From Desulfobacteraceae bacterium 4572_130 (lineage in GTDB: Bacteria > Desulfobacterota > Desulfobacteria > Desulfobacterales > Desulfobacteraceae), in the NCBI GenBank assembly GCA_002084425.1, contig NBLN01000003.1:1-64000 (forward strand): a stretch of DNA of 64,000 nt, given 5' to 3'. Below, piece by piece: positions 5,548 through 55,165 of this stretch. Position 1 is the stretch's first letter. Every line of letters starts with the position of its first letter. The notes under the pieces are model-generated. The model was given only the letters and a program-made list of their open reading frames with translations, was not told the DNA's origin and searched no databases. The translations under genes were made by a program, and so were the position numbers.

Positions 5548-6412
5548 GATCTATTATCTTTTTAATAAACTTTAACATCTTATCTTTTAATTCAGGACGC
5601 TCCATAGTAAAAGCAAGATTTGCCATTTGATATCCTGCTTTATCACCACAATCAAATCTTGTACCTTTAAATTTATATCCATATACAGACTGAATATCAA
5701 GAAGCTCTGCAATGGCATCTGTAAGCTGAATTTCTCCTCCTGCTCCTATTTTCTTTTTTTCTAGAAAATCAAATATTTCAGGAGTTAAAATATATCTGCC
5801 AACAACAGCAAAATTGGAAGGTGCTTTATCTGGACTAGGTTTTTCCACCATACCTTTGATTTTAAAAATATCAGTTCCCTTATCCTTAAAATCAAGAATA
5901 CCATATTTGTTAGTTTGATTTTTTTCAACTTCCATAGCAGCAATAATAGAACTCTTAAATTCATTAAATTGCTCTACCATCTGAGAAAGAGCAGAAACCT
6001 TATTTTGAATAACATCATCTGCTAAGATTACTGCAAAGGGCTCATTTCCCACAATATCTTTTGCACACCAAATAGCATGACCAAGACCAAGAGGTTGATC
6101 TTGTATAACAAATTTAATTTTACCATGTTTGGGAACAATTTCTTTTACCTGCTTTAATAAATCATGTTTTCCTTTATCTTTTAAAAATTTTTCAAGTTCA
6201 GGGTCATTTTTAAAATGTTTTTCTAAACCTTTTTTTCTTTCACTATTTACAAAAATAATTTCTTCTATACCAGCATCAAACGCCTCTTCAACAGCATATT
6301 GAACAATAGGTTTATCAACAATGGGAAGCATTTCCTTTGGCATAAACTTTGTTGCAGGTATAAACCTTACTCCCAGCCCTGCAACTGGAAATACAGCTTT
6401 TCTAATTTTCAT
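5543..6412 (-). CDS. galU: UTP--glucose-1-phosphate uridylyltransferase
   Basis: Makes UDP-glucose from UTP and glucose-1-phosphate for envelope polysaccharides. The 289-aa protein opens with RKAVFPVAGLGVRFIPATK, the GalU nucleotide-binding loop, followed by KEMLPIVDKPIVQY. Also visible are FVIQDQPLGLGHAI, VILADDVI (metal and nucleotide site) and GAGGEIQLTDAI. Length is normal. A good AGGAG site precedes the ATG. It is separated from fdhA by an inverted-repeat element and is probably its own unit. Confidence 0.95.
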   Translation of the reverse strand: MKIRKAVFPVAGLGVRFIPATKFMPKEMLPIVDKPIVQYAVEEAFDAGIEEIIFVNSERKKGLEKHFKNDPELEKFLKDKGKHDLLKQVKEIVPKHGKIKFVIQDQPLGLGHAIWCAKDIVGNEPFAVILADDVIQNKVSALSQMVEQFNEFKSSIIAAMEVEKNQTNKYGILDFKDKGTDIFKIKGMVEKPSPDKAPSNFAVVGRYILTPEIFDFLEKKKIGAGGEIQLTDAIAELLDIQSVYGYKFKGTRFDCGDKAGYQMANLAFTMERPELKDKMLKFIKKIIDQ

Positions 6413-6779
6413 GAGATCTCCTGCGATTATAAATTATTATTTTAATGTATTTAAATATAATTTTTATACACTATTATTTTTCTTTTTTAATTTTATAACT
6501 ATATCCCAAAAAAATATAAATAGTTCTGTGTGATTAAAAGTTTAGCTGCTCTGGGGAAAAACCATTATCTCCTTATTTTTAAAAATTAAACGCCATATCA
6601 TAATTTCTATAATTAATGAACTCATAAAAACACAAAATTTAAAATATTAAATAGCTATATAAAAAGCTTCATATACAAGATATAGTGTTTTTTCAAGAAC
6701 AAAATTACACATATGGTATTTTGAAGTCTTTAAAAAATATTATAATAATTAAATAAAGAACTTTTTAGATCCCATATTT
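6413..6779. other. Intergenic region between galU and sucD
   Basis: 367 bp without a gene. It holds a family A repeat copy at 6661-6742. The remainder is A/T-rich; I recognise no terminator with a convincing GC stem. Confidence 0.5.
6661..6742 (+). repeat. Dispersed repeat A, copy
   Basis: Shares the block order AAGCTTCATATAC / ATATAGTGTTTTTTCAAGAA / ACATATGGTATTTTGAAGTC / TTTAAAAAATATT with 11110-11193, 18636-18722 and 55088-55165, with scattered substitutions. About 82 bp long. It contains no reading frame. Confidence 0.65.
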
Positions 6780-11005: not shown

Positions 11006-11109
11006 ACTACAACATTTTCTCTATATGTAATACATATTGGCTTAAAGATTTATATATTAAAATTGAAAAATTCATAAAAATCCGAATTTAAAACACAAAT
11101 GGCTAAGTA

Positions 11110-11223
11110 AAAAGCTTTATCTACAAGGCGTAATATTTTTTTAAGAATGAAGTCATACATTCAGTATTTCAAAGTCTTAAAAAAATCTATAGCGCAGTAT
11201 ATAAAGGAATTTTACGACGCCAT
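11110..11223 (+). repeat. Dispersed repeat A with terminal ATGGCGTCGTAAAA end
   Basis: Bases 11110-11193 align block by block with the copies at 6661 and 18636. The right end at 11210-11223 is TTTTACGACGCCAT, the same terminal sequence as in the 43228-43373 element. This end lies within 4 bp of the stop codon of the mutase gene. Confidence 0.6.
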
Positions 11224-13347
11224 TTAAGCGCCAATTGCTTTTAGGGTCCTGTTTGCAGAATCTGTTACAACAGTTCCTGGTCCAAAAATATCAGATGCTC
11301 CTGCATTTGTTAAGAAATCATAATCTTTAGGTGGAATAATTCCTCCAACAACAACTTTTATATCTTCTGCACCTTGTTTTTTTAATTCTTTAATTAATGA
11401 TGGCACAAGGGTTTTATGGCCTGCTGCCAGACTTGAAACTCCAATAATATGAACATCATTTTCAACAGCCATTTTTGCAGCTTCAATAGGTGTTTGAAAC
11501 ATTGGGCTTATATCAACATCAAATCCAAAATCAGCATATGCAGTAGCAATAACTTTTACACCTCTATCATGGCCGTCTTGTCCCATTTTAGTTAAAAATA
11601 TTCTTGGTCTTCTTCCTGTTTTCTTTTCAAAATCCTTTGACCGTTGTCGCAAAGATTCTAAAATCTCGCTATCACCACATTCTGCTGCATAAACACCTGA
11701 AATACACTGGGTTGTAGCTACAAATCTGTTAAATACTTTTTCCATAGCATCAGATATCTCCCCTACAGTTGCCCTTGCCCTTACAGCAGGCAGACAAGCA
11801 TTAAGAAGGTTTTCATTGTTTTCTGCTGCATTTGTAATATCATTTAAGGTTTTTTGAACAAGATTTTCATCACGATTTTGTTTAATTTCATTAAGTCTTT
11901 GAATCTGCTCAACACGAATATCATCAGAAACTTCAAGAACATCAAGAGGTGTTTCATCTTCAATTGTATATTTATTAACACCAACAATAACATCTTTGCC
12001 TTGGTCAATTCTAGCCTGCCTTTTTGCTGAAACTTCTTCAATCCGCATTTTTGGCATACCTGTTTCAATTGCCTTTGCCATGCCGCCAAGGTCATCAATT
12101 TCCTTTATAATTTCCCTTACTTTATCAATTATATTTTGAGTTAAGGATTCTACATAATAGGAACCTCCCAAAGGATCCACAACACTGCATACATTTGATT
12201 CTTCCTGAACTATTATCTGGGTATTTCTTGCAACTCTTGCAGAAGTTTCCGTTGGAAGTCCAACAGCTTCATCAAAGGAATTAGTATGAAGGGACTGGGT
12301 TCCACCAAGAACAGCAGACATGCACTCTAATGTTGTTCTTATAATATTATTATAGGGATCCTGCTGAGCAAGAGACCATCCAGAAGTCTGACAATGAGTT
12401 CTAAGCATTTTAGATTTTGGATTTTTTGGATTAAATCTTTGCATAAGCTCTGCCCATAAAAATCTTGCAGCTCTAAGCATTGCAGCATCCATGAAAAAAT
12501 TCATGCCAATCCCAAAAAAGAAGGAAAGTCGTGGAGCAAAATCATCAACATTAAGCCCTGCTTCAATAGCTGCTTTTACATATTCCACACCATCTGCCAA
12601 AGTAAAAGCTGTTTGAAGTACTGAATCAGCTCCTGCTTCCATCATGTGATATCCACTTATGCTGATTGTATTAAATTTAGGCATATTCTGGGAACAAAAC
12701 CCTATTATATCTGATACAATTCTCATGGAAGGTTTAGGAGGATAAATATATGTGTTTCTTGTAAGGTATTCCTTTAAAATATCATTTTGAATTGTGCCAG
12801 TAAGTTGTTCATGTTTTACGCCTTGCTCTTCTGCTGCAACAATATATCCAGCTAGAATAGGAAGAACAGCTCCATTCATGGTCATGGAAACAGACATTTT
12901 ATCCAAGGGAATTTGATCAAAAAGAATTTTCATGTCTTCAACAGAATCAACAGCAACTCCTGCTTTTCCTACATCTCCTGTAACTCTTGGATGATCTGAA
13001 TCATATCCACGGTGAGTTGCAAGATCAAACGCTACAGAAAGTCCTTTTTGACCTGCTGCAAGATTTTTTCGATAAAATTCATTAGATTCCTTTGCAGTGG
13101 AAAATCCAGCATATTGTCTAATTGTCCAGGGTCTTCCTGTGTACATAGTAGCCCTTGGACCTCGAACAAAGGGATCAAATCCTGGAAGACAATTTAAAAA
13201 CTCAACTTTTTCAAGATCTTCAGCAGTATATAAAGGCTTTATTTTAATGCCTTCTGGAGTGTTTGTTTCAATGGATTCAAAGGGTTTTCCCCTTAATTCT
13301 TTTTCAGCAGTTTTTTTCCATGTGTTGACATCTGGCTTTTGTGACAT
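11224..13347 (-). CDS. scpA: Methylmalonyl-CoA mutase, large (catalytic) subunit
   Basis: Coenzyme-B12 enzyme that interconverts (R)-methylmalonyl-CoA and succinyl-CoA. The 707-aa protein combines the TIM-barrel catalytic part ([26 protein letters not shown]) with a C-terminal cobalamin domain carrying the base-off motif [11 protein letters not shown] (DxHxxG, around residue 590). Family length is about 700-730 aa. A single full-length chain without an adjacent small subunit suggests a homodimer like human or E. coli mutase. An AAGGAA site precedes the ATG. With meaB, epimerase and sucCD nearby it forms the propionyl-CoA/succinyl-CoA branch. Confidence 0.96.
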
Positions 13348-13621
13348 ATTAAATTCCTTTTACATTTATATTGTTAATAGATTTATTTATAGAATTTTTA
13401 TAATTTAATTAATTCAAATGTAACTATTTAAAATTATATTTGCCTTTACCATAAAAGGTATAAAGAACATAAAGTTTAAAAATAAATATTTTTATGTTTT
13501 TCATATATTTTAATACTTGTGTAATTATATTTTCTCTGGAGAATTTATATTGGATTAAATGCAATAAAACCCAACAAAACTCAATATTTTATTCTAAAGT
13601 ACAAAATTATCTATGGATAGC

Positions 13622-13665
13622 TACAATATATGGTAAGTTATTGTCAAGTGATACTATATATTGTA
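13622..13665 (-). promoter_or_regulatory. Inverted-repeat promoter/operator upstream of methylmalonyl-CoA mutase
   Basis: On the minus strand: half-site TACAATATA, then TAG, a -35-like TTGACA (13642-13647), N2-ACTT-N4, and half-site TATATTGTA. The same arrangement is found upstream of gapA at 41942-41990. The half-sites form a 9-bp inverted repeat around the TTGACA, suggesting a dimeric regulator on a promoter. It is about 275 bp upstream of the mutase start. The -10 box is not clear. Confidence 0.55.
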
Positions 13666-18635: not shown

Positions 18636-18722
18636 TTATAAAAACTTTCCATATACAAAATATAGTATTTTATCAAGAATGAAATCACATATATAGTACT
18701 TTAAAATCTTAAAAAAAATACC
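18636..18722 (+). repeat. Dispersed repeat A, copy
   Basis: CCATATACAAAATATAGTAT, then TATCAAGAATGAAATCACAT, ATATAGTACTTTAAAATCTT and an A-run: the closest match to the family consensus in this window. It lies between map and miaB. Confidence 0.65.
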
Positions 18723-41941: not shown

Positions 41942-41990
41942 GATACAATATATAGCTATTTCTTGACATCTACTTGTTGTATATTGTATC
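41942..41990 (+). promoter_or_regulatory. Inverted-repeat promoter/operator upstream of gapA
   Basis: GATACAATATA (41942-41952) and TATATTGTATC (41980-41990) are a perfect 11-bp inverted repeat around TTGACA (41963-41968). The same arrangement, with N2-ACTT-N4 between TTGACA and the right half-site, precedes the methylmalonyl-CoA mutase at 13622-13665. A -10 TATCTG lies 18 bp after the -35 but is weak. Confidence 0.6.
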
Positions 41991-42057
41991 TGTCTTTATA
42001 TGGTTTTGTATTCCCAGGATATTGTTCCGGGAACAGCAAATAATTTAAAAACAATAG

Positions 42058-42206: not shown

Positions 42207-43211
42207 ATGAGTATCAAGCTTGGAATTAATGGATTTGGAAGAATTGGTAGAATGATTTTTAGAGCATCACTTAAAAATCCAGATATTGAGGTTGCAGCAA
42301 TCAATGATCTCACAGATACTGAGACCATAGCACACCTTCTTAAATTTGATTCTGTCCATGGCAGATTAAACAGCGATGTTACAGCACAAGATGGAGCAAT
42401 TAGTGTTGACGGAAAAGAAATTAAAATAACTTCTTTTAAAGAACCTGCTAATATTCCTTGGAAAAATTCAAACATTAATATTGTTGCAGAGTGTACTGGA
42501 TTTTTCAGAAGCAAAAAAGATGCATCCCAACATATTAAAGCCGGTGCAAAAAAAGTTGTTATTTCGGCACCTTCTCCAGACCCTGACATTACTGTTGTAC
42601 TAGGTGTAAATGAACAAGAATATGATAGTACATCACATAATATTATTTCAAACGCCTCATGTACAACAAACTGCCTTGCTCCTGTTGCAAAAGTACTTTT
42701 AGAAAATTTTGGAATTGTAAACGGTATGATGACAACAGTTCATGCCTATACTGGCGATCAAAAACTTCTTGATTTTCCCCATAAAGATTTAAGAAGAGCA
42801 AGAGCGGCAGCTCTATCAATGATTCCAACAACAACTGGTGCTGCAAAGGCAGTATCACTTGTACTTCCTGAACTTAAAGGTAAACTAAATGGGCTTTCAG
42901 TTCGTGTTCCCACAGCAAATGTATCATTAGTTGATCTTGTTGCAGTCATAGAAAAAGACAATGTAACAAAAGATGATATAAACCAAGCCTTAAAAAAAGC
43001 CAGTGAAAACGAACTCGCAGGTATTCTTGAATATAATGATCTTCCATTGGTATCCATAGATTTTAATGGAAGCCCTTTTTCATCAATTGTTGATGCAAAA
43101 AGTACAGATGTTATTGGTAATATGGTAAAAATATATTCATGGTATGATAATGAAGTTGGATATTCCACAAGAATGATTGATCTTATAGCAATGATAGGCA
43201 GATCTCTTTAA
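42207..43211 (+). CDS. gapA: Glyceraldehyde-3-phosphate dehydrogenase
   Basis: Interconverts glyceraldehyde-3-phosphate and 1,3-bisphosphoglycerate with NAD(P). The 334-aa protein begins KLGINGFGRIGRMIFRA (Rossmann fold), has the active-site NASCTTNCLAPVAK (catalytic Cys near residue 150) and MTTVHAYTGDQKL, with WYDNEVGYSTRMIDL at the end. AAGGAGG is a strong ribosome-binding site. The long upstream region contains an operator and a TIR element. pgk, the usual neighbour, is not between gapA and tpiA. Confidence 0.96.
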   Translation: MSIKLGINGFGRIGRMIFRASLKNPDIEVAAINDLTDTETIAHLLKFDSVHGRLNSDVTAQDGAISVDGKEIKITSFKEPANIPWKNSNINIVAECTGFFRSKKDASQHIKAGAKKVVISAPSPDPDITVVLGVNEQEYDSTSHNIISNASCTTNCLAPVAKVLLENFGIVNGMMTTVHAYTGDQKLLDFPHKDLRRARAAALSMIPTTTGAAKAVSLVLPELKGKLNGLSVRVPTANVSLVDLVAVIEKDNVTKDDINQALKKASENELAGILEYNDLPLVSIDFNGSPFSSIVDAKSTDVIGNMVKIYSWYDNEVGYSTRMIDLIAMIGRSL

Positions 43212-43391: not shown

Positions 43392-44150
43392 ATGAATAGA
43401 ATTCCCTTAATTGCAGGCAACTGGAAAATGTTTAAAACTATAGATGAGTCTGTCTCAACAGCAGCAGAACTTGCTGAACTCAGTCATGATGTTAAAAAAA
43501 TTGATATTATGCTAGCTCCAACATCTATTAGTCTTTATCAAGTATCTCAAAAACTTAAAAACACAAACATACAAACAGGGGCTCAAAATATTTTTTATGA
43601 GGATGAAGGAGCTTATACTGGGGAAATATCTGCAAAAATGATAAAAGCTGCTGGTGCTAAATATGTTATTCTAGGACATTCAGAACGAAGGCAATATTTT
43701 GGAGAAACAGATGATTCCCTAGGAAAAAAAATAAAGGCAGCAATAGAACAAGACCTTATTCCCATATTATGTATTGGAGAAACTGAAAAACAAAGAGATG
43801 AAAATAACACTCTTGCAGTACTTAATAAACAAATAGAAAATGGATTAAAAGGATTTTCTTCCCAGGAACTTAAAAACATAGTCCTTGCGTATGAACCTGT
43901 ATGGGCTATTGGCACAGGAAAAACTGCAACTCCAGATCAAGTAAATAAAGTTCACAAAAACATTAGATCTTTCCTAGGGGAAATACTAGAAAATGAACTT
44001 GCAAATTCAATTAGAATCCTCTATGGTGGTTCGGTAAATTCTGGGAATGTAGCAGAATTAATGGCACTTGAGGATGTTGACGGAGCTCTGGTTGGCGGAG
44101 CAAGCCTTGGGGCTGATAAATTTATTAAAATAATAAAATATAAAGTTTAA
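43392..44150 (+). CDS. tpiA: Triose-phosphate isomerase
   Basis: TIM-barrel enzyme interconverting DHAP and glyceraldehyde-3-phosphate. The 252-aa protein has IPLIAGNWKMFKT (Lys), YVILGHSERRQYF (His), and VLAYEPVWAIGTGKTATP (catalytic Glu), ending ILYGGSVNSGN and GALVGGASL. Length is normal. AAGGAAA precedes the ATG. secG follows by 11 bp. Confidence 0.97.
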   Translation: MNRIPLIAGNWKMFKTIDESVSTAAELAELSHDVKKIDIMLAPTSISLYQVSQKLKNTNIQTGAQNIFYEDEGAYTGEISAKMIKAAGAKYVILGHSERRQYFGETDDSLGKKIKAAIEQDLIPILCIGETEKQRDENNTLAVLNKQIENGLKGFSSQELKNIVLAYEPVWAIGTGKTATPDQVNKVHKNIRSFLGEILENELANSIRILYGGSVNSGNVAELMALEDVDGALVGGASLGADKFIKIIKYKV

Positions 44151-44161
44151 AAATATAGATT

Positions 44162-44485
44162 ATGGGAATGTTCATATTATCAATACATATAATCGCCTGT
44201 ATCCTTCTAATTTTAATAGTTCTTCTTCAAACTGGAAAAGGAGCAGACATGGGAGCATCGTTTGGAGGTGCTTCAAGTCAGGGACTTTTTGGTGGGGCAG
44301 GTCCTGCCTCTTTTTTAAGTAAAATAACCACTGGAATTGCAGTAATTTTTATGCTTACATCATTATCTCTTGCTTATTTGGCAGGCAACAAATCAAATGT
44401 TTCTGTTATGCCAGATACAAAACCTCCAATCGAACAAAAAGCAAAACTTCCCATTGATCAAAAAGCAGATAATACTAGTAAATAG
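44162..44485 (+). CDS. secG: Preprotein translocase subunit SecG
   Basis: A 107-aa membrane subunit of SecYEG. Two hydrophobic helices: LSIHIIACILLILIVLLQ and ITTGIAVIFMLTSLSLAYLA, with the signature GKGADMGASFGGASSQGLFG between them. A hydrophilic tail follows. The order tpiA-secG-tRNA-Leu is common in many bacteria. Confidence 0.95.
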   Translation: MGMFILSIHIIACILLILIVLLQTGKGADMGASFGGASSQGLFGGAGPASFLSKITTGIAVIFMLTSLSLAYLAGNKSNVSVMPDTKPPIEQKAKLPIDQKADNTSK

Positions 44486-55087: not shown

Positions 55088-55165
55088 AACTCTATATACA
55101 AAATAGAGTATTTTTTCAAGAGCGAAAGTCATACATATAGTATTTTGAAATCCTGAAAAATATTA
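55088..55165 (+). repeat. Dispersed repeat A, copy
   Basis: ACTCTATATACAAAATAGAG, then TATTTTTTCAAGAGCGAAAG, CATACATATAGTATTTTGAA and ATCCTGAAAAATATT, colinear with 6661 and 18636 copies. Confidence 0.65.

Follow-up and report, generated by a model that had tools for sequence, protein, structure and literature searches.

A probable NrdR-type double operator at gapA, methylmalonyl-CoA mutase and other promoters of Desulfobacteraceae bacterium 4572_130

NrdR is a repressor normally limited to the synthesis of DNA building blocks. In Desulfobacteraceae bacterium 4572_130, the DNA sequence indicates that the NrdR regulon has probably been expanded about tenfold, onto gapA-tpi, methylmalonyl-CoA mutase, PPi-dependent phosphofructokinase (PPi-PFK), an aldolase, glgA, panC, coaX, a dGTPase and other genes. 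The element concerned, here called T1, would be an NrdR-type operator of double form enclosing a promoter, in which two palindromic CNATATATNG boxes bracket TTGAC(A). Two copies lie in the window, by which is meant the whole stretch of DNA analysed (64,000 nucleotides, 29.8% G+C, from an AT-rich genome). Their features are given below, the gene calls being ORFs with profile matches and not an annotation.

41944..41988, plus strand: T1 element (predicted NrdR-type double operator) of gapA-tpi-secG, TACAATATATAGCTATTTCTTGACATCTACTTGTTGTATATTGTA, 45 bp; E 2.5e-16 with model R1 (see below)
41946..41955, plus strand: box 1 of the gapA element, CAATATATAG, matching CWATATATWG exactly
41963..41968, plus strand: TTGACA between the gapA boxes, putative -35; the order box-TTGAC-box is also found before nrdD of relatives
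41977..41986, plus strand: box 2 of the gapA element, TTGTATATTG, 31 bp from box 1, with a degenerate inner end
41999..42007, plus strand: TATGGTTTT, gapA version of the ATARTTTT element and alternative -10, within the 10-12 nt class past box 2
42207..43211, plus strand: gapA, encoding a type I glyceraldehyde-3-phosphate dehydrogenase (GAPDH)
43392-44150, plus strand: tpi, 3' of gapA
44162-44485, plus strand: secG, 3' of tpi
13622..13665, minus strand: T1 element before the methylmalonyl-CoA mutase gene, TACAATATATAGTATCACTTGACAATAACTTACCATATATTGTA, 44 bp, boxes 30 bp apart; model R1 E 1.4e-16
13654..13663, minus strand: box 1 of the mutase element, CAATATATAG, from the box tabulation
13642..13647, minus strand: TTGACA between the mutase boxes, exact site
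13624..13633, minus strand: box 2 of the mutase element, CCATATATTG, from the box tabulation
13603..13610, minus strand: ATAATTTT element, 11 nt past the mutase box 2, from the ATARTTTT tabulation
11224..13347, minus strand: methylmalonyl-CoA mutase (NF006944, 1225 bits, cut-off 876)

At both places, TACAATATA-N26/27-TATATTGTA encloses TTGACA. Within the genome of 1.94 Mb, the exact pattern with a gap of N24-29 occurs seven times, against none in the reversed control, which confirms both sites beyond chance; the gene-directed promoter/operator common to gapA and the mutase gene that had been proposed in an earlier sequence-only reading is supported. The gene calls of that reading also hold (a type I GAPDH with tpi and secG behind it, and a mutase by its NF006944 match), and the site that it had placed at 41942-41990 is present, drawn 2 bp too wide on each side. 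Its half-sites, taken there as one inverted repeat with 9-bp arms, are instead two separate boxes of 14-16 bp, three helical turns apart. The window contains three CNATATATNG box pairs with at most one mismatch and a distance of 30-32 bp (one of them, at 18656, belongs to the T2 repeat described below), compared with a mean of 0.1 and a maximum of 2 in 60 dinucleotide shuffles.

The two genes do share this architecture, and their number had been understated, with about 29 copies genome-wide. The sequence-only model R1, made from 26 T1 sites, returned 29 copies with E-values no higher than 1e-9, followed by a gap to 5e-5, where the first of the weaker matches are the opposite strand of the same near-palindromic sites. 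All 29 elements are intergenic, two of them overlapping short, apparently spurious ORFs in the opposite frame (76 and 67 aa); the many random matches outside promoters that had been named beforehand as counter-evidence were not found in the genome scan. Along the direction of TTGAC, the next ORF is on the same strand for 27 of the 29 sites, or for 28 if an opposite, likely spurious 63-aa ORF at locus L040 is ignored, panC being then next, and the site at C3:92439, between murC and murB, faces away from the nearest gene. Between the 3' end of the element and the start codon there are at least 63 and at most about 460 bp.

The common layout consists of box 1 (C-N8-G), TTGAC, box 2 (C-N8-G) and, after 10-12 nt, ATA(A/G)TTTT. 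The distance from C to C of the two boxes is 31 bp in 25 of the 29 copies, 32 bp in three and 30 bp in one, and the conserved G/C offsets are 0, 9, 31 and 40. The outer positions are invariant (C at position 0 of box 1 and G at position 9 of box 2, each 29/29), with the inner G of box 1 kept in 25/29 and the inner C of box 2 in 24/29. TTGAC is kept in 24 sites and missing in five, and ATARTTTT is found 10-12 nt past box 2 in 22 of the 29; with at most one mismatch allowed, the count is 20/29 against a shuffle mean of 10.0 and a maximum of 18. The base at -2 of box 1 is T in 29/29 sites, a strictness that may partly come from the TAC seed, although an unbiased search still recovered 21 T1 sites. 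At L008, two T1 copies about 100 bp apart (6096-6140, minus strand; 6242-6286, plus strand) face divergent DUF1598 and radical SAM/SPASM genes. Another dispersed short repeat, about GGCAGATCTGATTTTTAATT, was observed in several intergenic regions, 3' of T1 in L023, L026, L027 and L033.

Carbon metabolism is prominent among the T1 targets listed from profile matches. These include gapA-tpi-secG, methylmalonyl-CoA mutase, PPi-PFK, a class II aldolase-like protein, phosphoglucomutase (pgm) and glycogen synthase (glgA), as well as a glycosyltransferase of the sucrose-phosphate-synthase/MshA kind, an acyl-CoA ligase and an acyl-CoA dehydrogenase-like protein. Additionally, T1 precedes genes for an Fe-S/CCG oxidoreductase, qrcA and the sdhC operon (via a 66-aa ORF); panC, coaX, folE2, dGTP triphosphohydrolase and an aminomutase/ammonia-lyase; OmpA-like, MlaE, radical SAM and C-GCAxxG-C-C proteins; and a thioesterase beside an NRPS-like ORF, PLD-like, FAD-binding and DUF1598 proteins and small or unknown ORFs. 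None of the targets identified is an RNR gene, although RNR control is customary for an NrdR operator and no requirement. A regulon for central carbon flow had been suggested for gapA and the mutase alone; the regulon is supported and many of its targets belong to central carbon (gapA-tpi, the mutase, PPi-PFK, aldolase-like, pgm and glgA), but that scope was too narrow, leaving outside it CoA and folate synthesis, dGTPase, sdh, qrcA and outer-membrane genes.

The element was identified from its box spacing, since CNATATATNG boxes 31 bp apart have the geometry of an NrdR operator. Both boxes are palindromic with a CWATATATWG core (at gapA, the inner end of box 2 is degenerate), and their centres are separated by an integer helical spacing of about three turns, the length that the NrdR tetramer is reported to cover (PMC9110341). 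The G/C offsets 0, 9, 31 and 40 equal the GC pairs at 9, 18 and 40, 49 described as essential for S. coelicolor NrdR, whose binding falls about 50-fold or more when they are inverted (PMC9110341). Counting boxes as 16 bp, the T1 spacer is 15 bp, and the NrdRs tested are reported to prefer, among others, inter-box spacers of 14-17 bp (PMC12051234). Like the NrdR operators of RNR operons, T1 has palindromic AT-rich boxes with C and G 9 apart, three turns from each other and bracketing or overlapping the promoter. Unlike them, it precedes about 29 mostly non-RNR genes, carries TAC instead of CAC as the outer flank, has its -35-like TTGAC shifted by 3 bp and is followed by the extra ATARTTTT. The sequence features that define the operator are present in T1; what appears unusual is the content of the regulon and residue 15 of the regulator.

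A neutral search built from NrdR box geometry alone (CNATATATNG-N21-CNATATATNG, at most two mismatches) found 29 pairs in this genome against none in the reversed control, corresponding to 21 T1 elements, the nrdD site, four T2 copies and three others. In 115 relatives, the same search gave 2.9 pairs on average (control mean 0.96), with a median of 2 and a maximum of 18, counts that are somewhat low because the fixed 31-bp gap misses operators at 30 or 32 bp. The highest were G089 with 18 and G001 with 11, both of them larger genomes; the box pairs of G089 (4.3 Mb) could represent a second expansion or a repeat. The T1 DNA pattern had no matches in the named genome collection, from which this or near genomes may be absent. 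Another operator known to regulate gapA, that of CggR in the gapA operon of Bacillus, differs in motif, being made of CGGGAC direct repeats, which were not seen at the gapA element here.

A T1-like arrangement is found before nrdD in the order. From 80 nrdD loci of named Desulfobacterales (Desulfamplus, Desulfobacula, Desulfobacter and others), two were dropped for a missing gene start, and the 500 bp upstream of the rest carried a box pair 30-32 bp apart in 71 of 78, a raw count without random control; TTGAC stands between the boxes in 70 of these 71. These operators resemble T1 in the order box-TTGAC-box and in the C-to-C distance, so that they align to it directly, and they differ from it in occurring mostly as one strong site per genome, before nrdD, with TTGAC at offset 19-20 instead of 17 (in T1, 3 bp nearer box 1). 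Model R1 gave weak matches elsewhere when run over this genome and 29 relatives, and six of the nine relatives' loci with ORFs read sit directly upstream of nrdD. A second model, R3, was made from 72 nrdD operators of relatives, none from this genome (73 TTGAC-bearing sites minus one duplicate). The invariance of TTGAC in that set is by construction, as the set was chosen for it, and the unforced figure is the 70/71 given above. Across 57 relatives, R3 gave a match at E < 1e-5 in 46, mostly one per genome (hand count), and for 23 of the 29 T1 loci its best match within 3 kb coincides with T1, 21 of them on the right strand (hand count). As a strict T1 detector R3 was discarded as weak, with T1 matches near E 1e-3, below a T2 repeat that is its best match in this genome (E 2e-4). 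For this reason, similarity of sequence would not by itself be proof of a link to nrdD, and it is geometry, register and copy number that would carry the argument.

The nrdD gene of this genome has the following upstream region:

L031:2713-3414: own nrdD upstream region, with two perfect CAATATATTG boxes 31 bp apart

This operator is rearranged, in the order TTGAC, CAATATATTG and a second perfect box 31 bp downstream, with no TTGAC between the boxes; the pair lies 382 bp from the start codon, in a layout other than that of T1. Both boxes read TACAAT, that is, they have the TAC flank of T1.

The genome encodes one NrdR (TIGR00244, 186.1 bits, cut-off 124.65), with the Zn-ribbon and ATP-cone of the family, and residues 1-148 of its 166 align with solved NrdR chains. 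From the ORF reading, nrdR adjoins dCMP deaminase and ribD. A single RNR gene was recognised, the class III nrdD, and no class I or II RNR was found with PF02867 in the whole genome, of which the assembly is 80% complete; within that completeness, the class III enzyme may be the sole RNR. Asp15 and Arg17 are the NrdR residues described as reading the boxes (PMC9110341); they are conserved and not family-defining. In this NrdR, Arg17 is kept and residue 15 is Asn (codon AAT, one base change, in a draft assembly 80% complete), compared with Asp15 in 24 of 24 relatives. A D15A substitution in Streptomyces NrdR is reported to relax specificity, mutated boxes being bound 10- to 100-fold better than by the wild type and even a control promoter being bound (PMC9110341). 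The T at -2 of T1 fits a changed recognition by an Asn15 NrdR and is not proof of it: the 72 operators of relatives have C in 58, T in 11 and A in three at this base, so T does not need Asn15, since 11 of 72 carry it where the NrdRs have Asp15 in 24/24.

For the promoter inside the element, a weak -10 had been noted beforehand, and the match at the normal distance from TTGACA is indeed poor. In a tabulation of 21 T1 sites, taken from a first list of 26, -10 matches 17 bp from TTGACA were at background (1.0 of 6), and the best match, at a 16-bp spacer (3.7 of 6), was set by the box letters TGTA, since TGTA(T/G)N overlaps the box. TTGACA is therefore treated as a putative -35 only. The second highest match to TATAAT (3.14 of 6) was at a 30-bp spacer. 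The candidate -10 is either the one overlapping the right arm of box 2 or TATA(A/G)T 10-12 nt further down.

A different repeat, T2, was set apart from T1. It is a hairpin-bearing repeat of about 150 bp with inverted arms TATTTTTTCAAG...CTTGAAAAAATA, found in the window at the following positions and at about 26 other places (L076-L105):

6674-6718: T2 copy
18654-18698: T2 copy
55097-55142: T2 copy
11088-11175: T2 copy

The nine copies checked are intergenic. The core of T2 mimics an nrdD-type operator, having a single good box, TTGA at the register of nrdD operators and TATA after the box, and T2 may be a MITE-like element carrying a promoter. Its approximately 30 matches were considered as a second promoter class; they turned out to be this longer hairpin-bearing repeat, and T2 was for that reason left out of the T1 count. 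A mismatch-tolerant pattern (49 versus 14) had T1 and T2 mixed together. T1 as a MITE-like mobile element was likewise discarded. In a test that covered 28 T2 copies and all but three of the 29 T1 sites (26), the likeness among T1 flanks did not exceed that of shuffles (medians 15/15 and 14/14), and the upstream flank of T2 does show homology among copies; T1 is therefore an operator/promoter motif, its flanks being unrelated. An RNA element was also rejected, Rfam giving two tRNAs only in the window.

Here it is proposed that the sole NrdR, when its tetramer carries dATP together with ATP (or ADP), would clamp the two T1 boxes and bend the promoter shut, leading to repression as at RNR genes elsewhere. 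The boxes, their spacing, orientation and copy number, the nrdD-like arrangement, the single nrdR and Asn15 are read directly from the genome, and from them we infer the binding of NrdR to T1 and its repressive effect. A set of 29 targets is a large claim for this regulator, because 186 known NrdR regulons average 3.2 target genes (PMC5343134), and for the Proteobacteria studied there, regulation by NrdR is reported as one of the interactions conserved most strongly. The closest precedent is the regulon of Pseudomonas aeruginosa, where NrdR also acts on a non-RNR gene, topA; unlike the present case, topA is the only additional target, has a single box and is activated, and the authors found no NrdR boxes in that species beyond the RNR genes and topA (PMC4409342). 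No report of a 29-operator NrdR regulon was found in searches of open-access papers.

The ambiguity of the -10 (background at 17 bp, box overlap at 16 bp, TATA(A/G)T at 30 bp) is why an activating role was kept as a rival. NrdR or a partner would then activate T1, with box 2 over the -35, TATA(A/G)T 10-12 nt downstream as the -10 and TTGAC as an ancestral remnant. This is a variant of the repression proposal, so the confidence placed in the two overlaps, and it is considered unlikely: the ATARTTTT of most T1 sites, the second-highest TATAAT match and the reported activation of topA speak for it, but topA has the single box, a remnant leaves unexplained why TTGAC is kept in 24/29 sites, and in the species studied, RNR operators whose boxes surround the promoter serve for repression (PMC12051234, PMC9110341). 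Another regulator unrelated to NrdR could also read TACAATATATAG...CTATATATTGTA, activating or repressing, the likeness being due to convergence or to descent of the sites without the protein. The 3-bp difference in TTGAC register, the fixed ATARTTTT that is absent from the nrdD operator alignment, the strict T at -2 and the own nrdD operator, with its perfect CAATATATTG boxes and no TTGAC between, would agree with such a protein. It is nevertheless judged quite improbable, as the box core, the 31-bp spacing, the four GC positions and the intervening TTGAC of T1 match the nrdD operator of the order, and the TAC flank is common to T1 and the own nrdD boxes; a non-systematic search also gave no candidate protein. 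A third reading, in which no dedicated regulator is involved and T1 is a mere strong promoter class or else a mobile repeat, would suit an AT-rich genome where other repeats such as T2 are present; it is very hard to reconcile with flanks that resemble shuffles, which speak against mobility, and with the box C and G, not promoter bases, as the most conserved positions, and it is given almost no weight.

Under the proposed repression by NrdR, the replacement of Asp15 by Asn would have altered or loosened recognition, and the regulon would have grown from nrdD to about 29 promoters. The dATP:ATP state would then tune glycolysis/gluconeogenesis, propionyl-CoA use and CoA and folate synthesis. That the Asp15-to-Asn change is what made a global regulator out of NrdR, which elsewhere is dedicated to about three genes, and coupled dATP:ATP to central carbon, CoA and folate through about 29 operators with a new TAC flank, is advanced tentatively and with some doubt. 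If true, this would be a natural experiment in a narrow regulator becoming global, with a natural change at the very position where substitution by alanine abolishes specificity in vitro, and DNA-precursor sensing would be linked to carbon metabolism in a sulfate reducer.
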